In this document: piece by piece, positions 44,604 to 62,555 of the stretch
Numbering within the stretch: the stretch's first letter is position 1
Layout of the letters: each line of letters starts with the position of its first letter
Assembly (NCBI RefSeq): GCF_900230225.1
Contig: NZ_OCNH01000001.1
Location: 1,550,001-1,614,000 of the forward strand
DNA from: Spirosoma fluviale
GTDB lineage: Bacteria; Bacteroidota; Bacteroidia; Cytophagales; Spirosomataceae
Length of the DNA stretch: 64,000 nt
Reading direction: 5' to 3'
Program-made: the position numbers and the translations under genes
Notes under the pieces: generated by a model
Seen by the model: only the letters and a program-made list of their open reading frames with translations
Told to the model about the DNA's origin: nothing
The model's database searches: none

Positions 44604-44688
44604 ATAGGCGGTTTCTTGTCCACAAAGCTACTTTTTCTGGTATTCTTCAAAAGAGATAAAGCTACTGGTTCGTGTTTTAGGTAAAAAG

Positions 44689-44726
44689 AAAAAACGCCCT
44701 CAATCCTCAGGGAGAAGGCGTTTTTT
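44689..44726 (+). terminator. Rho-independent terminator after the AddB-like gene
   Basis: AAAAAACGCC / GGCGTTTTTT stem with a 12-base interior including CCCT/AGGG pairs, then GCTG. It lies 86 bases past the stop and probably marks the last chromosomal transcription unit before the mobile element. Confidence 0.75.
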
Positions 44727-44919
44727 GCTGTATTTTGAATACAACCTGAACTCCGTTTAATGGCTTCATTGTCGCTTCCAGTCTCAGTAAATCTCGGTTC
44801 TGACGCAACCAGCGCACTTTTTGTTTAACTTTGTCAACCCGCCAATCGACTCCAAACGACGGATTTGGGGGGGGTGTTGTACCAAATGTTGTACGAAAAT
44901 TAATTCGCTAATTTCCCTG
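44727..44919. other. Junction region, probable left end of the mobile element
   Basis: Gap between the chromosomal terminator and the integrase start. It has a short GTTGTAC direct repeat (near 44876 and 44890) and a G-run. The left attachment site should lie here or just before, but the core cannot be defined without the right end, which is beyond the window. No tRNA gene is adjacent. Confidence 0.4.
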
Positions 44920-46275
44920 ATGGGTACTGTTTCTATCGTTCTTCACGGTGCGGCTCGCGGTGACGGCAAGTATCCGCTTCGCATTCGGGTCGGTCAAAAC
45001 CGGAAATATTCTTACGAGACACAATGTTATGTGAAAAAGGGTCACTTCAACGAGGGGGCCAGTCAACTCTATTCCTACGAGCCGGACTATCTGCGCTTAA
45101 ATAAGCTTATCCGTAAGCGTTATGCCGAAGTGGTCGAGTTGGTGGAGTTCTATGATGAAAAGGGATGGCCCTATACTTCTCAGGACATACTGGCCATTGA
45201 TTACCCGATCTGGAAATCAAGTCAGGAGAAAAGTAAACAGATTGCTCAAGACTCGGTACCGGGGGGCTTTATCGCCTTCATTCGAGAAGTGGTCATTCCG
45301 TACTGGCAAACCAAGAAGAACCTCAGCAACGCGGAGAAATACCAACTGGAAGCGGACGTATTCGAGGAATACTTGGCTACGCTCAAACCCATGCGCGTGG
45401 ATGTACCGATGGCCGACTTCAACAATGCTTTGATCGAGGGTTATTTCAGCTATCTGCGGACTAAAAAGAAACCCTGCAAGAAAGATTCTACCCTAAAGCG
45501 CCGACTGGCTCAGATTGACGCGGTGCTGCGTTTTGCTCACGAGAAGAAAGGGGTAATCTCCAGTATTCCCAATCTGGAAATTGACCTGAACATTCTCAAG
45601 GCCAACAAACCCAAGCTGACCAAAGATCAGATTGAGTTACTGGAGAACTACGAGTGGGATTTGGTTAACATACCGCCCAAACATCAGCAAAAGGGTATAG
45701 CCAGTCTGCGGAGGTCGGTACAGACCTTTCTACTGCAGTACTATTTATTCGGGGCGCGAATTGGGGATGTGTTGCTGTTGACCAACAGTTCGGTTATCAC
45801 CCAGAAGGGAAGGCCGGTGCGGGTGGAATACTACCAGCAGAAAGGCCGTAAGAAGGCAGGAAAGAAGCTGATGAGTATTAATGTCAATCCCAGGTTAATG
45901 GCGATCCTGACCGAGTACTGGAATCCTGAGAAGCCCAATGATTTCCTGTTGCCGTGGATGGCTGGCAGGTATGAGCATGACTTCACCATTTCGGAGGAAG
46001 AACGGGCCTACAATCTGAAGAAGGCGGTTCACGATGCGACCAGTCTAGTGAACATTCGACTGAAGGCGGCCTGTGACTGGATAGGGCTGGATGTACCAAC
46101 GCTGGCCAGCCATTCAGCTCGTCACAGCTTCGCCCAACGGGCCAAGAAAAAAGGCAAGTCGATTGAGTGGATAAAGGAAACGTTGGGACACAGCACCTAC
46201 GACATTACTGCACATTATCTGGCTGATCTGGACTCGGAGGAACTGAACCAGAATATGGCCGATGTGTACGATTAG
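44920..46275 (+). CDS. Tyrosine recombinase / phage-type integrase
   Basis: The protein has 451 residues from ATG 44920; the longer frame from TTG 44821 adds a Cys-rich leader that looks non-coding. It has an arm-binding N-terminal domain, a SAM-like core-binding domain (FEEYLATLKPMRVDVPMADF) and the catalytic domain with Arg280 (FGARIGDVLLL), His398/Arg401 (HSARHSFAQRA), His424 (LGHSTYD) and Tyr433 (ITAHYLAD). This is the phage/ICE integrase class of Bacteroidota. It sits at the left edge of the element, next to an apparently undisturbed chromosomal gene. A perfect palindrome overlaps the stop codon. Confidence 0.93.
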   Translation: MGTVSIVLHGAARGDGKYPLRIRVGQNRKYSYETQCYVKKGHFNEGASQLYSYEPDYLRLNKLIRKRYAEVVELVEFYDEKGWPYTSQDILAIDYPIWKSSQEKSKQIAQDSVPGGFIAFIREVVIPYWQTKKNLSNAEKYQLEADVFEEYLATLKPMRVDVPMADFNNALIEGYFSYLRTKKKPCKKDSTLKRRLAQIDAVLRFAHEKKGVISSIPNLEIDLNILKANKPKLTKDQIELLENYEWDLVNIPPKHQQKGIASLRRSVQTFLLQYYLFGARIGDVLLLTNSSVITQKGRPVRVEYYQQKGRKKAGKKLMSINVNPRLMAILTEYWNPEKPNDFLLPWMAGRYEHDFTISEEERAYNLKKAVHDATSLVNIRLKAACDWIGLDVPTLASHSARHSFAQRAKKKGKSIEWIKETLGHSTYDITAHYLADLDSEELNQNMADVYD

Positions 46276-48472: not shown

Positions 48473-48814
48473 TTAAAATAAAGACTGAATGAGGGTCGCT
48501 TTTTTAAAGGATTCAATGCCTTTGCGCATGGCTTTGTACTCGGCTCGATGGCCAAATCGGTTGCATACGCGCAACAGGCAATCAAGGCCATATTCCAACG
48601 CGTGTTCCCGGTTTTTATGAGGTGCGTGGTTCAGGGAGGCTCCGCACATTTGGGAGCAGCCTTCTACCTGATAATCGTGTCCAACGGCCCATCGTCCGGT
48701 GGGGGTTCGGGCCAGTCGAATCACAGCATAAATGCGCCGGGACTGGTGATAGACAACAACGACTTCGGGGTTCTGACAAACGCCGTTGTGATTGAAGGTA
48801 AAGGGGGTATTCAT
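48473..48814 (-). CDS. Hypothetical protein, paralogue of the 53160-53507 gene, LF-ending C-terminus
   Basis: The protein has 113 residues. The segment VVVVYHQSRRIYAVIRLART, then WAVGHDYQVEGCSQMCGA and NREHALEYGLDCLLRVC resemble the corresponding parts of the 115-residue protein at 53160-53507 (VVFHKDRTPLDTHAEIRLAQ, WAYGYDLTTHHSGSGCSANP, SKDEAIRQALAHIEKRT). Both end in a hydrophobic LF-containing tail, here TLIQSLF. Overlaps the upstream gene by 4 bases (ATGA), so translationally coupled. Confidence 0.55.
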   Translation of the reverse strand: MNTPFTFNHNGVCQNPEVVVVYHQSRRIYAVIRLARTPTGRWAVGHDYQVEGCSQMCGASLNHAPHKNREHALEYGLDCLLRVCNRFGHRAEYKAMRKGIESFKKATLIQSLF

Positions 48815-48993
48815 AGCAAATTGAATTGAGTCCCTGCGGGAATGGTTACCGGCTTTTCCAGATAGGTAATGGCAGTCTGAACGCAGTCATGGCAGATACG
48901 GAACCATTTGACGACTACTGGCTTGGTATTGGCTGGTTTGTCGGGTGGCAGGATGATCCTGGGTTTTCCGCCAAACAGGTCTAACTGTATCAT
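48811..48993 (-). CDS. Small protein with N-terminal QLDLF motif and Cys pair
   Basis: The protein has 60 residues. It starts MIQLDLFGGKPRIILPPDKP, where QLDLF is exactly the canonical sliding-clamp-binding pentapeptide (QL[SD]LF). A CxxC-like RICHDC follows. The repeated leader motif at 49036 lies 42 bases upstream. Probably a clamp-interacting adaptor, by inference only. Confidence 0.55.
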   Translation of the reverse strand: MIQLDLFGGKPRIILPPDKPANTKPVVVKWFRICHDCVQTAITYLEKPVTIPAGTQFNLL

Positions 48994-49061: not shown

Positions 49062-49277
49062 TTAAGCCATCGCGCGTTGGATGGCCTTAAGGTCGTGTTT
49101 GTGAGGCTCCTGTCCTTCAAGGGCTTTCGCGACGATTTCCAGCGCAAATTCCAGTGCTTGCGTGTTGCTGGCGAAACCTTTGGCTTTACGAATGGTGCTG
49201 ATCTGCTTTTTGGTAATCAGGGAAAGCCGGAAGGGCGTTAATTTCTTGGCTACTTTGGGTTCTGCTTTGGTTTCCAT
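49062..49277 (-). CDS. Small basic protein after PRTRC ThiF
   Basis: The protein has 71 residues with a basic, helical pattern (KKLTPFRLSLITKKQISTIR, NTQALEFALEIVAKALEGQE) that resembles ribbon-helix-helix or other small DNA-binding proteins. The start overlaps the stop of the ThiF gene by one base (TAATG), so it is coupled to the PRTRC cassette. Confidence 0.55.
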   Translation of the reverse strand: METKAEPKVAKKLTPFRLSLITKKQISTIRKAKGFASNTQALEFALEIVAKALEGQEPHKHDLKAIQRAMA

Positions 49278-50074
49278 TAGACTTTAATTGGGTTGGCTCG
49301 GAAGTCCGAGAGGTTGAGAAAAAATCCCCGATTATGGGTTCTGCCTTCACGGAACAGAGTCCATAACAGTTTGCATCCCATCTGGGCAATGGTCGAATTT
49401 ATGAACAAGTCCTGTTTTCGTAATGCTTCCGCAACCGAACAGCTTGGCGTGTCGTCGTCAGCTTCACTACTGGCCAGTACTCCGCCGAACTCGTCGGTGA
49501 TGAAGGGCAGTTCGGTAACGGTGGCAAACTGCTCGGAGGTTGGCTGTTTAAGGGGGCCAACTGTTGCCAGTATAAGCTGTCCTGAGTTCTTGGCGTTGCC
49601 GAAGTCCATCCAGTAGCTGGCCTGAGAACGGCTAAAATTGCGCTCTCTGGCTTTCAGACACACCTTCAAAATATCAGCGATCTCAAAACGGGCGGCTACC
49701 GAATCTACACAGCTAATCATCAGGCTGGCTTCCCGGTTGTCTTTGGTCACGGTCTGTTTGGTGTAGCGCATGGGTTTGGCTTTCCAGTTGGTGCCAAAGA
49801 ATCGATTCACGCGGTTGATCAGGACGGTGGCCTTGTTGTGGCCTAGTTCTGCCTCCGCAAATAGCTGGCGGCCTAAATTGGCTTCGGACACAACATCATC
49901 ATCCCAAAGGGTTACGTGCAATCCTGGATGGCCCAACTCGATCAGGGCGTGGTTCATTCGGGCAAGGCCCGTAATAACCTGTGAACCCGTTCCACCGGCA
50001 CCGATGAGGTAAACCGTCAGGGGATTTTGGGGATTCAAAAACGATTTGTCGGTATAGTGGATGCGCTGGTTCAT
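49277..50074 (-). CDS. PRTRC system ThiF-family (E1-like) protein
   Basis: The protein has 265 residues. The E1/ThiF/MoeB nucleotide-binding loop is VYLIGAGGTGSQVITGL (GAGGTG at 25-30), and LHVTLWDDDVVSEANLGRQL shows the adenylation-loop pattern D-x-D-x-V-x-x-x-NL-x-RQ. SCVDSVAARFEIADIL and DDTPSCSVAEALRKQDLF (Cys212) follow; the latter sits where E1s carry the catalytic cysteine loop. E1-like proteins activate the C-terminus of a ubiquitin-like or sulfur-carrier protein by adenylation. In PRTRC cassettes it acts with proteins B, C, E and F. Overlaps the B gene by 4 bases. Confidence 0.88.
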   Translation of the reverse strand: MNQRIHYTDKSFLNPQNPLTVYLIGAGGTGSQVITGLARMNHALIELGHPGLHVTLWDDDVVSEANLGRQLFAEAELGHNKATVLINRVNRFFGTNWKAKPMRYTKQTVTKDNREASLMISCVDSVAARFEIADILKVCLKARERNFSRSQASYWMDFGNAKNSGQLILATVGPLKQPTSEQFATVTELPFITDEFGGVLASSEADDDTPSCSVAEALRKQDLFINSTIAQMGCKLLWTLFREGRTHNRGFFLNLSDFRANPIKV

Positions 50075-50838
50075 CGGATGAGGTCTTTTACTTTGTAGGA
50101 AGTGGCTTTGAGTACAGATGCAGGAAACGGCTCCTGGCTGGCGATCTGGTTTTGCCAGAACAAAACGATGTTGCCGTTGATGGGTGATTCGCGGATGGTA
50201 TGGGAGAAATAGCTATTAAAGAAATAGCTTTCCCATGCGCTCATGAAGTTCTCCAGTGATGCGCTTCGCTTGATGCGAACGTTGACGCTACCCATACAAA
50301 CGGGGCCGTGTCCGTACACGTTGAAAAACGGTGCCTGGAACATGGGCGTGTCGGCGGTGGGCTTCTCGTCGGTGGGCAGGGCGAACAGGGTTAGTCCGGT
50401 TTTGCTGGCCTTCCAGATAAGGGCGGGAACATGTGCCTCTCCTGATGGAATGGTCAAACTTTCAACGAACAGCAGCTTTCGTGTGGTGGCTGGCGTGTAC
50501 CAGATGGCTTTCCCGGCATCGGGCGTAGGGTCGATGTAGAGAACGTTGGCGGGAAGCAATCCCGTTGGTTTGAGAAAGGCGGTCTTTTCCGAGTGGGCGT
50601 TATAGAGTGTTTTGGATAGGACGATGGCTTCGCGGTTGCTTAAGGGGTGTGCGTTGATCAGCTTGCGGCTTTTTTGGTCGATGTCGAAAGATTCCACATA
50701 CAGGGCTTGGCTCCAGGCATCGTTGCGGGTCTGAGTTGCCCGCATATGACGGTAGGTGACGAGCGCATTAGTTGGTACATACACATCGTTCAGTTCGTCG
50801 GTAATTTTATTGATCGTCTTCTTGGTTGTCGTCGTCAT
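50071..50838 (-). CDS. PRTRC system protein B (E2-like)
   Basis: The protein has 255 residues. The segment FFNVYGHGPVCMGSVNVRIK (about 171-190) matches the E2 ubiquitin-conjugating pattern, in which a late asparagine and G-x-V/I-C precede a hydrophobic run. Cys181 is the only cysteine of the protein and is the candidate catalytic residue. From memory PRTRC B belongs to a prokaryotic E2-like family; this is family knowledge, not shown here. N-terminal 100 residues carry VTYRHMRATQTRNDAWSQAL and LLPANVLYIDPTPDAGKAIW. The start overlaps the F gene by 32 bases; the stop overlaps the ThiF start. Confidence 0.78.
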   Translation of the reverse strand: MTTTTKKTINKITDELNDVYVPTNALVTYRHMRATQTRNDAWSQALYVESFDIDQKSRKLINAHPLSNREAIVLSKTLYNAHSEKTAFLKPTGLLPANVLYIDPTPDAGKAIWYTPATTRKLLFVESLTIPSGEAHVPALIWKASKTGLTLFALPTDEKPTADTPMFQAPFFNVYGHGPVCMGSVNVRIKRSASLENFMSAWESYFFNSYFSHTIRESPINGNIVLFWQNQIASQEPFPASVLKATSYKVKDLIR

Positions 50839-51775
50839 TGGTCAGAAAGTAAAGAAAGTCGTTGAGGATAGAAAGCAGGGTACAGTCGAAATTAATGTCT
50901 TTGGTCGTCGGTGGAGTCGGGCTGTCAAACAGGGCCGTACTTCGGGGTTCGTCAATGGCCGATGCGTTTGCGAACTCGCATTGGTTGAACGTCTGGATGG
51001 TCTGCTGAATAAATTCGTTGTCCTCCCAGATAAAGGTTAGATACTGGTCGATGGTGATAAGTCCCTCGAAATACTCGTCCTCGTCTATCTCGTCGCTAAA
51101 CTGGTGTCCGAGTGCCTGATTAATTTTGCGGTCGGGATAGCGAAGGTAAAGGGCATGAATTTTTCTGATCTCAGCCTTTAGCTTTTCTTCTCTGGGGGTC
51201 GCGGGTTGAAAGCGGTCAAGTCGGCGCGTCCATGCGTTCAGTTGTTTATTCCAGTCAAGCTGCCTTTTTATCCGGTTGCCCTGCTCTATGGCTGTTTTTA
51301 GTTCATCGGCCATTTCCTGCGGGGCATTCGGTTCCATTTCTTCCTCGTCCATTTCGTACAGATAGTGTTCCATCGACCAGTCGTATTGATGGGCCATCCA
51401 GCCGCTTTCGGTGAAGTAGTCGATACCGACGATTCGATACAGATAGGCATACGTTGAGGTCAGCAAATCAGCCAGTGCATACTTTCCAGCCTGTCGGAAG
51501 TCTTGGATCGGCTTTACCGGAATGTACCACAAGTGTAGGGCGGTGTCGTAGGTATGGGTCAGATAGAGTGATGCGCTGGTGTCGTCGGTTTCCACTACAT
51601 CAACCTGATAGTTACCGAGTGAGATTTTATCCAACTCGTCGGCAATGCGTTCCATTTGCCAATGAATGTTAAGCGGGTAGGGGAGGTCGGTGTCAACGTG
51701 CGGAAAGTCGTAGTAATCGCACAAATAGGAAAGGGACTTAAAAAAGTCCCTTTCCCGATTCTCCCGGTTCCGCAT
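50807..51775 (-). CDS. PRTRC system protein F
   Basis: The protein has 322 residues from ATG 51775. I prefer this to the frame start at 51934, because residues before it overlap the 59-residue upstream gene and look Arg-rich and frame-shifted (SDRRVSRAVEPTARRGQRQG). Helical regions DFFKSLSYLCDYYDFPHVDT and PIQDFRQAGKYALADLLTST lead to a very acidic segment (MDEEEMEPNAPQEMADELKT). From memory F is another E2-like PRTRC family; motif support is weak here. The C-terminal tail overlaps the B start. Confidence 0.6.
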   Translation of the reverse strand: MRNRENRERDFFKSLSYLCDYYDFPHVDTDLPYPLNIHWQMERIADELDKISLGNYQVDVVETDDTSASLYLTHTYDTALHLWYIPVKPIQDFRQAGKYALADLLTSTYAYLYRIVGIDYFTESGWMAHQYDWSMEHYLYEMDEEEMEPNAPQEMADELKTAIEQGNRIKRQLDWNKQLNAWTRRLDRFQPATPREEKLKAEIRKIHALYLRYPDRKINQALGHQFSDEIDEDEYFEGLITIDQYLTFIWEDNEFIQQTIQTFNQCEFANASAIDEPRSTALFDSPTPPTTKDINFDCTLLSILNDFLYFLTNDDDNQEDDQ

Positions 51776-51810
51776 AGCCTCTGGGCCTACCAACGGTTCG
51801 AACTGATGAT

Positions 51811-51990
51811 TTAGAAAATCATCGGCAACTCCTGTAGCGGTACGCTTCGCTTGCGGTTTGCCTTGACGTTGGCCGCGTCGGGCAGTCGGTTCAACTGCTC
51901 GTGAAACCCGGCGATCTGATACGATAGCTTCCATTGTTTGTCAGAATAATTGGGGTCTATTTGGCGGAGGGTGCGGGTCGCTGGCTTCAT
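51811..51990 (-). CDS. Small PRTRC-cassette protein (59 residues)
   Basis: From ATG 51990 to TAA 51811: MKPATRTLRQIDPNYSDKQW, QIAGFHEQLNRLPDAANVKA and SVPLQELPMIF look like genuine protein. It begins one base after the stop of protein C and overlaps any longer F start. Function unknown. Confidence 0.6.
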   Translation of the reverse strand: MKPATRTLRQIDPNYSDKQWKLSYQIAGFHEQLNRLPDAANVKANRKRSVPLQELPMIF

Positions 51991-51991
51991 G

Positions 51992-52210
51992 TTATCCTTT
52001 GGTGCCCAATGTCGTGGTAAATTTGTATTCCAGCTTGTCATTGTTCCAGTCCGGTCCCTGAATTTTGGCCGTTGTCAGGGCGGGGTAGGTGTTGGCGTAA
52101 AAATTAAGAACAGCTTCGGGGCTGAAGGATGGGTTGGGGTCGGTAAGTACAACATCCTGGCCGTTTTCTTTGAGCGTAAATGTGCGGGTGGCTTCGGTGG
52201 CGACTAACAT
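51992..52210 (-). CDS. PRTRC system protein C (ubiquitin-like candidate)
   Basis: The protein has 72 residues: ATRTFTLKENGQDVVLTDPN, PSFSPEAVLNFYANTYPALT, and an ending TLGTKG. The first half, with KENGQDVVLTDPNPSFSPEA, is typical of PRTRC C. The C-terminal residue is Gly72, as needed for E1 activation of a ubiquitin-like protein. From memory PRTRC C is assigned to a prokaryotic ubiquitin-like family. It lies between E and the small 59-residue gene, in the PRTRC order E-C-x-F-B-ThiF. Confidence 0.78.
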   Translation of the reverse strand: MLVATEATRTFTLKENGQDVVLTDPNPSFSPEAVLNFYANTYPALTTAKIQGPDWNNDKLEYKFTTTLGTKG

Positions 52211-52254
52211 AGGTATTGTGCGTTTTACAGGTTTACAGATTGATTAAATGAAGA

Positions 52255-52791
52255 TTAGGCGAACAGGGAAATAGTGCCTCCGTTCAGTTGTTCTACGAGT
52301 TCATCCCGGCGATTGCGGATGGTTTCGGCTTGCTCCGGGTGCTTCTCTGCGTCAGGCAGGGCGGCAATGGCTTCGCGGTACTTTTTCTTCCCGGCAAGGT
52401 CTTCTACTTTGGTCATGGCGGCTTCGTATGCCTTCTGTTCGGCTGACTTGCCTTTTTCGGCCTCCTCTCTTTCCTTCTTGACTTTCTCAGCTTTGGCCTT
52501 CTCTGCCGCAGAATTGGCATTGGCTTTCTCAACTGATTTCAGGTGAGCTTCCATGTTGACCTGTAGCCCCGAAACCTTCTGCATGGGGGCAGTAATGTGG
52601 TCAAAGAAACCTTCGTCCAAATCGGTGGGCGTTCCCCGAAGTAGGAGCGGAGCAATAGCACTAGCGGCTTTGTCTCCATTGGCCGCATTATCCAGTAACA
52701 GACTTACGCTAAGTTCTCCTTTGACGTTGGTGATGACCATTTTCAGGTTTCCGACTAAGTTGAGGTCTGCGAGTTGAGTGAAAAAATCCAT
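52255..52791 (-). CDS. PRTRC system protein E, C-terminus with LF motif
   Basis: The protein has 178 residues. N-terminal beta-rich domain MDFFTQLADLNLVGNLKMVI, LSVSLLLDNAANGDKAASAI, then GTPTDLDEGFFDHITAPMQK, an alanine/lysine/glutamate-rich coiled coil (about 100-150, KAEKVKKEREEAEKGKSAEQ) and a helical end (EQAETIRNRRDELVEQLNGG). It ends GTISLFA, near the QL[SD]LF sliding-clamp motif. Its leader region (52824-52865) carries the repeated terminator cassette. Confidence 0.65.
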   Translation of the reverse strand: MDFFTQLADLNLVGNLKMVITNVKGELSVSLLLDNAANGDKAASAIAPLLLRGTPTDLDEGFFDHITAPMQKVSGLQVNMEAHLKSVEKANANSAAEKAKAEKVKKEREEAEKGKSAEQKAYEAAMTKVEDLAGKKKYREAIAALPDAEKHPEQAETIRNRRDELVEQLNGGTISLFA

Positions 52792-52872: not shown

Positions 52873-53160
52873 TTAGATAAATCGGAATCCTCCGGTGGGT
52901 AGCTTTTGCAGGGGGCTGTAGCTGTCGCCGTTGAGGATGAGTACATCGGCGAATAGCTTGTTTCGGGGTTCGTTCTGGTCGGTGTGCTGGCGAATCAGTC
53001 CACCGAGATAGTCAAGTCTGAATACTTCCCATGTCTGTACGTAAAAGCCGTACATATTCAGGGCATCAACAATCAGGCTTTCGCGTTTGGGCTTGTTCTC
53101 GTCCAATACGCGCAGGGGGCCTCCATAGATAGGGTTGTAGTCGGTCGTGTTGCGTAGCAT
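52873..53160 (-). CDS. Hypothetical protein of the mobile element, 95 residues
   Basis: MLRNTTDYNPIYGGPLRVLD, VDALNMYGFYVQTWEVFRLD and LLFADVLILNGDSYSPLQKL-like blocks suggest a small alpha/beta fold. The ATG shares its A with the TAA of the upstream gene (TAATG). Unknown function. Confidence 0.6.
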   Translation of the reverse strand: MLRNTTDYNPIYGGPLRVLDENKPKRESLIVDALNMYGFYVQTWEVFRLDYLGGLIRQHTDQNEPRNKLFADVLILNGDSYSPLQKLPTGGFRFI

Positions 53161-53507
53161 TAGCAGAACAGGCTTAATTGGTTGATGGATGCGCTGTAGT
53201 TTCGAATAGCCAGATTCAGCGTCCGGTATTCGGCTGAATTTTCATCGTTGGGCCGTTGGCCTTCGCTTGCCGTTCGCTTCTCGATGTGAGCTAATGCCTG
53301 ACGGATGGCTTCGTCTTTGGAGGGGTATAGGCTTCTGCCGTTAGGGTTGGCAGAGCAGCCACTACCGGAATGATGGGTGGTCAGGTCGTACCCATACGCC
53401 CAATATCCGGAAGTAGCGTTTTGCGCTAACCGAATCTCGGCATGGGTATCTAATGGAGTGCGGTCTTTATGGAATACCACAATTATTTCTTTCTTATACT
53501 GGTTCAT
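53160..53507 (-). CDS. Hypothetical protein with C-terminal QLSLF, paralogue of the 48473 gene
   Basis: The protein has 115 residues from Met 53507. It ends ASINQLSLFC, with an exact QLSLF sliding-clamp-binding pentapeptide one residue from the C-terminus. Overall plan as in the 48473-48814 protein (EIIVVFHKDRTPLDTHAEIR, GYDLTTHHSGSGCSANPNGR). It may tether an activity to the beta clamp; this is inference from the motif. Confidence 0.6.
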   Translation of the reverse strand: MNQYKKEIIVVFHKDRTPLDTHAEIRLAQNATSGYWAYGYDLTTHHSGSGCSANPNGRSLYPSKDEAIRQALAHIEKRTASEGQRPNDENSAEYRTLNLAIRNYSASINQLSLFC

Positions 53508-53508
53508 G

Positions 53509-53718
53509 TTAGCGAGTTGGATTTTGATAAAAAATGGCGGTGCCGATAGCGTCACTATAATTGCTTTTTATACGTACTGATATCTTGTCTCCCCCTAAAT
53601 GATTGGGGGAATACTCCATTATATGAAACTCCAGTGTGGAGGATAGCGAAGTATCGTGTTTGCGTTGGGCTTTTGCCTGACGTACAATTTTTTCGAGTTG
53701 CTGAATCGTGATGTCCAT
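53509..53718 (-). CDS. Hypothetical small protein of the mobile element
   Basis: 69 residues from ATG 53718: MDITIQQLEKIVRQAKAQRK, HIMEYSPNHLGGDKISVRIK. Charged, probably soluble; the frame to 53841 overlaps the upstream gene and is unlikely. Unknown function. Confidence 0.5.
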   Translation of the reverse strand: MDITIQQLEKIVRQAKAQRKHDTSLSSTLEFHIMEYSPNHLGGDKISVRIKSNYSDAIGTAIFYQNPTR

Positions 53719-60044: not shown

Positions 60045-62555
60045 ATGTACGGATCGGGTGGCGATGCCTCAGCGCAGTACGCGCATAACTGGGAGTTAGC
60101 CAAACAGGAAGCGTTCAGTTTGAATCGCAGCCAGGCTAGGACTAAGGAAGTTTCAGTACCGGTAATTCTTTGGGACGATAAATATTACAAACAGCCGAAA
60201 AAGCTAATTGACCTGTTTCGCCGGGTCAGTGATTTTCAGCTGTTCAATCCTCATCTGCTCTGGGCGTTTGACAATCCCAATCAGGAATATCTGTTTGATA
60301 TCGTCGACGGAAAGCTGAGGATGGATGATTACTACCTGGCCGATAATCTCTTCGGGGATGTTGGACCGGTACCGACGAAGGATAACAATTTCTTCCATGG
60401 TGCCAAGTCGGCGCTGATGGGCCAGGTGCTGTCTCACGCGTTTCAGTTTGCGGTCAAGAACCTCAACACAAAATTCGCTCAGGAAGCGATTGCCGAACAG
60501 TCAAGGGCAGGGGCAAAGGTGCTAACGCAGGGATTAATTGAAGCGGCTGGCGACCGTGGAATGAATCTGGACTTTGCCCGCAACAAGAAGATACCTCTGC
60601 CCAAGAATGCCAATGACCTCTTGCAGTACATGAACTTGCAGGAACAGGTCGAATCCACGATGCACAAGCTGTTGATGCATACGGATTATCAGCACTCGTT
60701 TCAGGATGTGGGGGCAGCAGCTTTCGGCCATAAGTTCGCGGTTAACGCACAGTTCGGATTCCTCGACGTAGTAAACGGGGAGTTGATACCAAAGGCCTAT
60801 CACCCTGACCAGGTACGCTACATGGCTACAAAGCGGGTCGAAACCTTTGAAGATCCTAACGTACTGGCGGCATCGGTCATGGACTATATGCAGCCTACCG
60901 AACTGATGAACCATTTCGGAGTGGGTCTACAGACCGGAACGGGTATACAGGGGATTATCAACTACATTGATTCGGTTACCAAAGTGGGCCGTAACATTGG
61001 GTATAACCTCGACGGAAACTACTGGAATGATCAGGGTGTCGGCGGCTGGGGTCTGGGCAGTGAGTTGGATAACCTGAAGATACAGGGCTATACCCAAAAG
61101 CAAATTAACTGGATGAACCGCTGTTTTTATCCGGTGATCCGGAGTGCGGGGGGATTGTTGATGAACATCCTTGTTCAGCGCAATTTCGTTAAGGTCATCC
61201 ATCAGGACCGCTTCAAGGTCGAAAAAGCGGAGGGCGAAAGCTGGCGGCCCGCTACTGATCGGGAACTTAAGTACTGGCAGGAAACCAATTTCGACCGGAG
61301 CGTACATCTTCGGTTTGTGCCGGTCGATGAGGAAAAGAAAGAAAACCTAAGCCGGGCAAACGTCAAAGTCTACAACCGGGTAAAGCTGTGGCAGTTCGAC
61401 CGTATCGGTCACGATACATTTATCAACGTTGGGCCCTATCAGTACCAGCCTGACCCCAACGGGGAAAACAAAGGCTACGTTGGTATGCCCATCAAGGCGC
61501 AAATCAGCTACGATAAGAGCATGGCCAAGCTGGGGGAAAATGACGCGATCCGCGTGAACGTCCTCTACAAAGCCATTGACGAATACCTGATCAATATGGG
61601 TATTTCGGAAGCCATCATTGTCGATGATGCCCAGGAAGGCGAACCGCTGGAATACCTCTACAACGTTAAGAAGTCCGGGATAGTCCGCTATGACTCTACG
61701 CTGATGCAGCCCAATAATCAGGCTCAGCAGCAGCATTTACGGACCATCAAGCTATCCAATCACACAGAAGAACTTCGGGTCGCCTTTGAGTTGGTTCGGC
61801 TTATCACGACGGGTTATGAATCCCGGATGGGTCTTTCTCCTCAGGTACAGGGCGTATCAGAACGCTATGAAGGGCTTAAGGAAACCCAGCTTAACATTGC
61901 CAATCAGGCACTGTTGCTGACTAAGTGCCTGCGCGAACATACCCTGTTCATAAATCAGCTCTTGCAGGGCTCGGCTGATATTCTCAAACAGCTTCACGCG
62001 CGGGATGGGCAAATGAACGTGGTGCTGACCGATGGGGAACGGCATTTACTCTACCTGACCCGCAAACTGGCACTGGCAGATTTTGATATCAAACTTGAAT
62101 CCGGTCAGATTATCGAAAACCGGCTCAAACTCATTCAGGGTATTCTATCCAGTATGGCCGCTTCCGGCGGTGCCAAAGAGGGCGGGGCACTTCTGGAAGC
62201 AAGTCTGACCAACTCCCCGGCGGAAGCAATGGCAATCTACCGCCGATTGAACGAGCAGATTGAGAAAGCCCAGAAGGAATCTCAGGAAATGCAGCAGGCT
62301 ATCGCTCAGCAGAACGCACAGATTCAGCTACAGAAGATTCAGCTTGAACTTGAAAAAGAGAAGGAGATCACCAAACGCACGATCATCGTCCAGGACATGA
62401 AAAACAAGGCAGCCGCCGATAAGACCGACGCTGACGGCATGAAGGACGATATCGAACGTACAAACCAGCGTGAACAAATGGTGCTCGATGCCGCGCTGGA
62501 AGCCCAGCTAGCCAGTAGCCAGCCTCAACAACAGGGGCAACCTCAACTCGCATAA
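60045..62555 (+). CDS. Probable phage portal protein
   Basis: The protein has 836 residues. The N-terminal region is helical; the middle has an alpha/beta core (FVKVIHQDRFKVEKAEGESW, TDRELKYWQETNFDRSVHLR). The stretch ESRMGLSPQVQGVSERYEGL followed by KETQLNIANQALLLTKCL and a Gln-rich, Lys/Glu-rich coiled coil (about 720-836, QIQLQKIQLELEKEKEITKR) looks like the crown end of portal proteins of large tailed phages, including crAss-like phages of Bacteroidota. Portal proteins form the DNA entry channel of the capsid. The assignment rests on overall pattern, not a known signature. Confidence 0.55.
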   Translation: MYGSGGDASAQYAHNWELAKQEAFSLNRSQARTKEVSVPVILWDDKYYKQPKKLIDLFRRVSDFQLFNPHLLWAFDNPNQEYLFDIVDGKLRMDDYYLADNLFGDVGPVPTKDNNFFHGAKSALMGQVLSHAFQFAVKNLNTKFAQEAIAEQSRAGAKVLTQGLIEAAGDRGMNLDFARNKKIPLPKNANDLLQYMNLQEQVESTMHKLLMHTDYQHSFQDVGAAAFGHKFAVNAQFGFLDVVNGELIPKAYHPDQVRYMATKRVETFEDPNVLAASVMDYMQPTELMNHFGVGLQTGTGIQGIINYIDSVTKVGRNIGYNLDGNYWNDQGVGGWGLGSELDNLKIQGYTQKQINWMNRCFYPVIRSAGGLLMNILVQRNFVKVIHQDRFKVEKAEGESWRPATDRELKYWQETNFDRSVHLRFVPVDEEKKENLSRANVKVYNRVKLWQFDRIGHDTFINVGPYQYQPDPNGENKGYVGMPIKAQISYDKSMAKLGENDAIRVNVLYKAIDEYLINMGISEAIIVDDAQEGEPLEYLYNVKKSGIVRYDSTLMQPNNQAQQQHLRTIKLSNHTEELRVAFELVRLITTGYESRMGLSPQVQGVSERYEGLKETQLNIANQALLLTKCLREHTLFINQLLQGSADILKQLHARDGQMNVVLTDGERHLLYLTRKLALADFDIKLESGQIIENRLKLIQGILSSMAASGGAKEGGALLEASLTNSPAEAMAIYRRLNEQIEKAQKESQEMQQAIAQQNAQIQLQKIQLELEKEKEITKRTIIVQDMKNKAAADKTDADGMKDDIERTNQREQMVLDAALEAQLASSQPQQQGQPQLA

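Follow-up and report, generated by a model that had tools for sequence, protein, structure and literature searches.

A JAB-less PRTRC ubiquitin-like conjugation cassette in a Spirosoma fluviale prophage and its possible connection to the DNA sliding clamp

The survey of Iyer, Burroughs and Aravind (2006; PMC1779556) describes operon type 6d, and Bacteroides already appears in row 6d of its table. Systems of this type combine a ubiquitin-like protein ending in glycine, an E1-like enzyme, an E2-like enzyme with a cysteine and a downstream histidine, and a further helical protein. The same combination is encoded by a five-gene cassette in a prophage of Spirosoma fluviale, located in a window of 64,000 nucleotides (contig NZ_OCNH01000001.1, 7.8-Mb genome; positions are window coordinates, and numbers above 64,000 lie beyond the window). 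This cassette belongs to the PRTRC / operon type 6d family and represents its JAB-less Bacteroidota form. Unlike type 6d as described, it has no JAB protein, its modifier C is tailless, the protein in the F position is not detectably related to plasmid F, and the whole unit is prophage-borne. The reading we favor, at a probability of roughly one in three, is that of a temperate phage equipped with a reduced PRTRC 6d conjugation system: protein E would dock on a hub, the DNA sliding clamp being the likeliest, and C would tag the replication and recombination proteins bound there.

Phage carriage is shared with the isolated Burkholderia phage BgVeeders33 (OK665841; L010:16252-20738), in which E, C, F, B, A and ThiF are all over their NCBIfam cut-offs; its record calls the PRTRC genes hypothetical proteins, except ThiF. 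Unlike the Spirosoma cassette, BgVeeders33 has PRTRC A (the JAB protein), a true PRTRC F and a 62-residue tail on C. The Bil system (BilABCD) also shares a ubiquitin-like protein, E1 and E2, but its families differ and it is a host defense system, whose JAB, a component absent here, matures the ubiquitin-like protein before activation (PMC11354881). Of the CBASS proteins Cap2 and Cap3, the former is the closest E1 relative of ThiF with a solved structure; however, PADLOC matches are weak, and CBASS has fused E1 and E2 and no separate ubiquitin-like protein, whereas these are separate genes here. A search of titles and the opening lines of abstracts found no publication on PRTRC function or on ubiquitin-like tagging of a bacterial clamp. 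In the excerpts of PMC10434189, PRTRC occurs in expression tables, without an account of function, and the excerpts of a jumbo-phage review (PMC7824862) contain 'ubiquitin' twice and neither 'E1-like' nor 'E2-like'. As far as the literature was searched, the extent of phage carriage, the association of a C-terminal tail on C with JAB, and the linkage to a clamp gene are new.

All five genes sit where a sequence-only reading of this DNA had placed them, in the order E-C-F-B-ThiF (open reading frames, 49277-52791, all on the minus strand), and the E1-E2-modifier logic proposed there is supported by profile searches, which recovered ThiF, C, E and B and failed for the F-position protein. None of the three results named beforehand as overturning that logic was obtained. 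The E1-like ThiF (49277-50074) scores 266 bits on TIGR03736 (cut-off 145), the ubiquitin-like modifier C (51992-52210) scores 69 bits on TIGR03738 (cut-off 46) with a Prok_Ub match at 7.9e-24, and E (52255-52791) scores 46 bits on TIGR03741 (cut-off 38) with PF19556 at 1.5e-51. B (50071-50838) is placed in E2 family D by Pfam (Prok-E2_D, PF14460, 3.3e-33), its 111 bits on TIGR03737 (PRTRC_B) falling under the cut-off of 131. In a whole-genome search, PRTRC B, C and the over-cut-off ThiF each occur in one copy.

The catalytic residues are conserved. The adenylation site noticed earlier in ThiF is present, with G25-x-GGTG, D58, D60, N66, R69 and Q70, as well as the candidate thioester Cys212, invariant in 21 aligned sequences, window included. 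A profile search of solved structures places Cap2 and Uba6/Uba1 nearest to ThiF. The single Cys181 to which attention had been drawn in B is invariant across 23 close and 13 divergent sequences, and the downstream His213 is invariant in the 23 close sequences and not in the 13 divergent ones. The structures nearest to the predicted model of B are E2 enzymes, but at low scores. C, predicted from its Prok_Ub and TIGR03738 profiles to be a beta-grasp modifier, ends in GTKG with no tail, and its terminal Gly is invariant in 25 aligned sequences. Against solved structures, the C profile returned no relative at E 1 and the B profile three chance matches only.

The distribution of the family was followed in three collections. 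Chromosomal loci were found with B, taking one genome per species and keeping the best 80 of 399 places; the first viral set comprises IMG/VR contigs found with a ThiF alignment (80 kept of 92), and the second, contigs found with a JAB alignment (80 kept of 127), at least 7 of which are shared with the first. Three pairs of identical contigs (L015/L118, L016/L117 and L017/L113) were each counted once. B is present in 230 of 72,556 plasmid records (tblastn); a total of 1,095 B homologues were scored, and the organisms named among the 120 matches listed are Bacteroidota. The best 80 chromosomal Bacteroidota loci contain B (80), ThiF (80), the F-position protein (80), C (79), E (78) and JAB (0), and the first viral set (n=80) contains B in 80, C in 76, E in 71 and JAB in 23. 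A viral-contig scan with B alone found no relative. Terminase_6N was matched in 12 of the 40 viral contigs of this set that were tried, 8 of them over the cut-off, including L113, L114 and L115, the three viral rows nearest to the window on the ThiF tree. Virus-classed contigs, not every one of which is shown to be a phage, thus often carry a PRTRC cassette. By eye, conjugation-like genes often lie downstream of the cassette in the chromosomal Bacteroidota loci. A divergent group (L261-L272, contigs up to 181 kb) has JAB, B and ThiF without a recognized C, and one of its members, L270, also has a clamp match.

The protein at 50807-51934 is conserved in Bacteroidota and is here named by position only. 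No NCBIfam family matches it at E 0.01, nor does any Pfam family reach its cut-off, and the model of the protein (mean predicted local distance difference test score 78.4) has no significant Foldseek match. An alignment of 28 rows compared with four plasmid and phage F proteins gave an hhalign probability of 0.2%, a weak test with four rows on that side. Its earlier naming as protein F is not sustained by these results.

The absence of PRTRC A had been noticed within 64 kb, and it extends to the whole genome, which holds no match to Prok-JAB (PF14464) or JAB (PF01398) under conditions in which the positive controls matched. PRTRC_A (TIGR03735) and PRTRC_D (TIGR03739) likewise have no match in the genome, but their controls gave none either. 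PRTRC_ParB (TIGR03734) is not matched in the prophage, and the sole match in the genome is a below-cut-off ParB at C4:13634, outside the prophage. The earlier account's implication that these gaps are peculiar is not supported: the JAB-less E-C-F-B-ThiF form is found in all 80 chromosomal Bacteroidota loci kept and also on two annotated Bacteroidota plasmids, which have no ParB listed in the stretch concerned. Because JAB is missing from the entire chromosomal set, it is treated here as not required for membership of the Bacteroidota branch of PRTRC.

The presence of JAB is mirrored in the C terminus of the modifier. This was assessed in 173 loci not selected for JAB in which C was found with its stop codon, after removal of three duplicate contigs; near-copies and possible overlap between collections were retained, and JAB was sought in the fetched stretches, up to 10 kb on each side. 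Among JAB-bearing loci (n=32), C carries a tail of 3-100 residues after G-x-K-G in 30 and none in 2 (the sphingomonad plasmids L104 and L110), and no tail occurs in the JAB-less loci (n=141), where C ends exactly at KG in 137 and the remaining four end, tailless, in GTKA, GTLG, GQLG and GQLG. The descriptive pattern that a tail on C occurs only together with JAB is well supported. The converse does not hold, since C was recognized in 67 of the 80 loci of the JAB-chosen viral set and is tailless in 19 of them (tail in 47, 1 unreadable). In the JAB-bearing viral contigs (L166-L190, L193-L260), the tails are 57-100 residues long in many cases and are of several unrelated sequence types. The ThiF tree (97 rows) requires 3 changes in JAB and 4 in the tail; there are 2 independent pairs on starred branches and 3 on all branches, and the tail follows JAB in 1.8 of 2 independent pairs on average. 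Kinship explains much of the table, and with 2-3 independent contrasts no significance can be claimed. The JAMM residues E99, H146, H148, S156 and D159 (first-row numbering) are invariant in 10 PRTRC A proteins. Because the tail accompanies JAB in 30 of 32 loci and is absent from all 141 without it, PRTRC A looks like the maturase of C.

The genes around the cassette suggest a link with replication and recombination. A DNA polymerase III beta clamp gene is present in 24 of the 80 contigs of the first viral set, and also in L014; the calls range from L158, over all three Pfam cut-offs, to L014, over one of three, and L115, just under the NCBIfam cut-off. In 17 of the 24, E follows the clamp stop codon on the same strand after 2-108 bp (E start estimated), in 4 (L127, L133, L143 and L155) the clamp gene ends where an E frame or E-family gene begins, and in 3 the clamp lies elsewhere; in L014, it overlaps the end of ThiF. 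The clamp label changes 13 times on the ThiF tree for 23 of 97 rows, so clamp carriage is not the property of one clade. With a single clamp as the query, relatives were found in 94 of 50,697 phage records, and the background frequency is at least this high. The clamp gene is present in 0 of the 23 JAB-bearing contigs of the first viral set and in 1 of 80 of the JAB-chosen set. The chromosomal Bacteroidota loci contain no clamp (0/80), SSB in 70/80 and DUF932 in 71/80; in most of these loci (L018-L097) the DUF932 and SSB genes lie upstream of E. DUF932 was considered as an annealing protein, and a literature search on it yielded nothing among the matches listed. A Rad52 gene stands beside the cassette in L017 and L014. 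Of the functions guessed at from the sequence, replication-protein tagging fits these neighborhoods best.

Clamp-binding-like motifs are concentrated around the JAB-less viral cassettes. The consensus, taken from the excerpted text of PMC13254535 and applied only as Q[LIVA]x[LM]F, occurs in 16 of 379 open reading frames within 2 kb of these cassettes (200 shuffles: mean 4.0, max 11), in 9 of 831 beyond 2 kb (shuffled mean 8.0), in 3 of 292 inside the cassettes (3.1) and in 1 of 166 near JAB-bearing cassettes (1.0). In this prophage, the form Qx[SDT][LM]F is found in 3 of 119 open reading frames and in none of 60 in the flanks. Two of the three stand on the minus strand close to the cassette, namely a small candidate frame of 60 residues (48811-48993) starting MIQLDLFGG and a frame of 131 residues (53160-53555) ending NQLSLFC; the third is at 69326-71629. 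In three viral contigs (L115:5820-6194, L116:4934-5464 and L138:5657-6301), the gene immediately preceding the clamp gene contains QLSLF or QYNLF or ends in QLQLF, and these genes are possible clamp partners encoded in one run with the clamp and PRTRC.

A related peptide marks the C terminus of E, which ends in TISLFA in the Spirosoma protein. The pattern [STDN][LMI]F occurs after residue 105 in 60 of 74 JAB-less E proteins (shuffled mean 5.6, max 14) and in 28 of 64 JAB-bearing ones (mean 0.9, max 6); for comparison, it is found in 127 of 526 viral open reading frames of 150-260 residues, E included. It lies at most 3 residues from the stop in 26 of the 64 JAB-bearing and 14 of the 74 JAB-less proteins; many JAB-bearing E proteins end in TLDLF, others in DMY, SLW or a different sequence. 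The [ST]-L-F-like C-terminal peptide of E is clearly conserved despite a variable tail.

In eukaryotes, PCNA ubiquitylation and SUMOylation organize ubiquitin-like tagging around a sliding clamp. A working of this kind can be proposed for the prophage cassette. ThiF would adenylate the C-terminal Gly of C, which would pass, perhaps through Cys212, to Cys181 of B, and B would then hand C over to a target protein; from the conserved residues, such a thioester relay can be inferred and conjugation of C is likely. With C encoded in a mature form, ending in GTKG, no JAB would be needed to start the cycle, and the tags may stay on. E may act as an adaptor that anchors the machinery, through a hydrophobic peptide at its C terminus, to a hub of replication. 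The clamp is the likeliest hub, and replication and recombination proteins bound to it or to single-stranded DNA would be tagged in the manner of PCNA-bound factors. Our best guess is that the proteins tagged with C serve replication or recombination and are perhaps reached at the clamp; docking on the clamp and the identity of the targets are speculative, and binding of the E peptide to the clamp is a guess from its sequence. The likeness to PCNA extends to the proposed working only, the systems being unrelated and the clamp target hypothetical here. The broader proposition that phages and other mobile elements run ubiquitin-like conjugation around the bacterial clamp, tagging bound replication proteins or the clamp itself during replication of the element, is more tentative.

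Several observations weigh against docking on the clamp. The strict motif is not general in E, its Gln-first form, as in the clamp consensus, occurring in 11 of 74 JAB-less proteins (shuffled mean 1.0, max 5) and 0 of 64 JAB-bearing ones. Homology alone could preserve the peptide, and a similar appearance would be expected of an acidic tip of the SSB type or of a peptide making contacts inside the cassette. Finally, profiles for clamp, SSB, Rad52 and DUF932 have no match in this prophage, so that here the role of hub would fall to the clamp of the host or to the helicase of the phage itself.

Other readings differ in what C would be attached to. The prophage might tag host defense proteins or those of incoming phages, in counter-defense or superinfection exclusion, as Bil does from the host side; the phage setting suits this idea, as does the block of phage assembly by bacterial ubiquitin-like conjugation (Hoer 2024, as cited in the excerpts of PMC12660748). 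We nevertheless consider it rather unlikely, as the cassette is also found on plasmids and in chromosomal Bacteroidota loci with SSB and DUF932, and PADLOC names weak generic E1-E2/BilD matches to ThiF alone, with nothing for the other nine proteins, B, C and E included. Doubtful to a similar degree is an aid to maintenance, in which tagging of ParB-like or initiator proteins would help mobile elements to replicate or partition. A ParB-type gene does stand upstream of E in all 12 of the non-Bacteroidota plasmid stretches inspected, but the two annotated Bacteroidota plasmids list no ParB near the cassette, the prophage has no PRTRC ParB, and a chromosomally integrated phage needs partition less.

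It is also conceivable, if improbable, that nothing is conjugated and that ThiF and B form a carrier pathway in which C acts as a sulfur carrier or a cofactor-type protein, given that ThiF also has below-cut-off matches to the ThiF and MoeB families; however, an E2-family B with an invariant Cys accompanies the cassette in 80 of 80 viral loci, which were found with ThiF, and in 80 of 80 chromosomal loci, which were found with B. Least probable, and only a slight chance in our estimate, is a decayed passenger whose genes happen to be unbroken although the system has ceased to function here. The locus does lack the JAB and ParB that many relatives have, but JAB-less relatives are common, and the cassette consists of open frames with 48-64% identity to relatives, invariant catalytic residues and overlapping neighbors (ThiF and B by 4 bp, B and the F-position gene by 32 bp).

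The phage-like setting described from the window is supported by a bounded element. A perfect 67-bp direct repeat, attL-like at 44684-44750, recurs at 147163-147229; a search out to 122 kb found nothing, and the partner copy was found once the range was extended. Judged from its sequence, the element is a prophage of about 102.5 kb. Just inside the repeat lies a tyrosine integrase (44821-46275, plus strand; Phage_integrase, PF00589, 8.7e-10), followed beyond the cassette by a phage portal protein (60045-62555, plus strand; phrog_6547, 1.6e-7), a virion structural protein (65368-69321) and a large terminase (113740-115767). Further matches between the repeats include an endolysin, a DNA methyltransferase-type protein, a DnaB helicase, a replication initiation protein, a repressor and, weakly (5e-5), a tail protein. 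The 64-kb window contains no tRNA. The portal has no relatives in 50,697 phage records at the search sensitivity used, in the viral-contig scan or in three PRTRC viral records, and the terminase has weak matches in 10 phage records, from uncultured gut phages and Bacteroides phages. Among the structural genes is an open frame of 5,180 residues (75624-91166) with methylase-like and helicase-like stretches seen by eye, which we take to resemble the giant polyvalent phage proteins. The stretch at 129950-136200 appears to hold a type I restriction-modification set, in which the methyltransferase-like gene alone was checked.

For the PRTRC family, the pattern of tail and JAB suggests for JAB a concrete function that can be put to the test, that of a maturase, and the clamp linkage supplies a specific target hypothesis for a system that has been unexplained. 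Should this hypothesis prove correct, phages and bacteria would possess ubiquitin-like tagging at sliding clamps, a viral and bacterial counterpart of the ubiquitylation and SUMOylation of PCNA.

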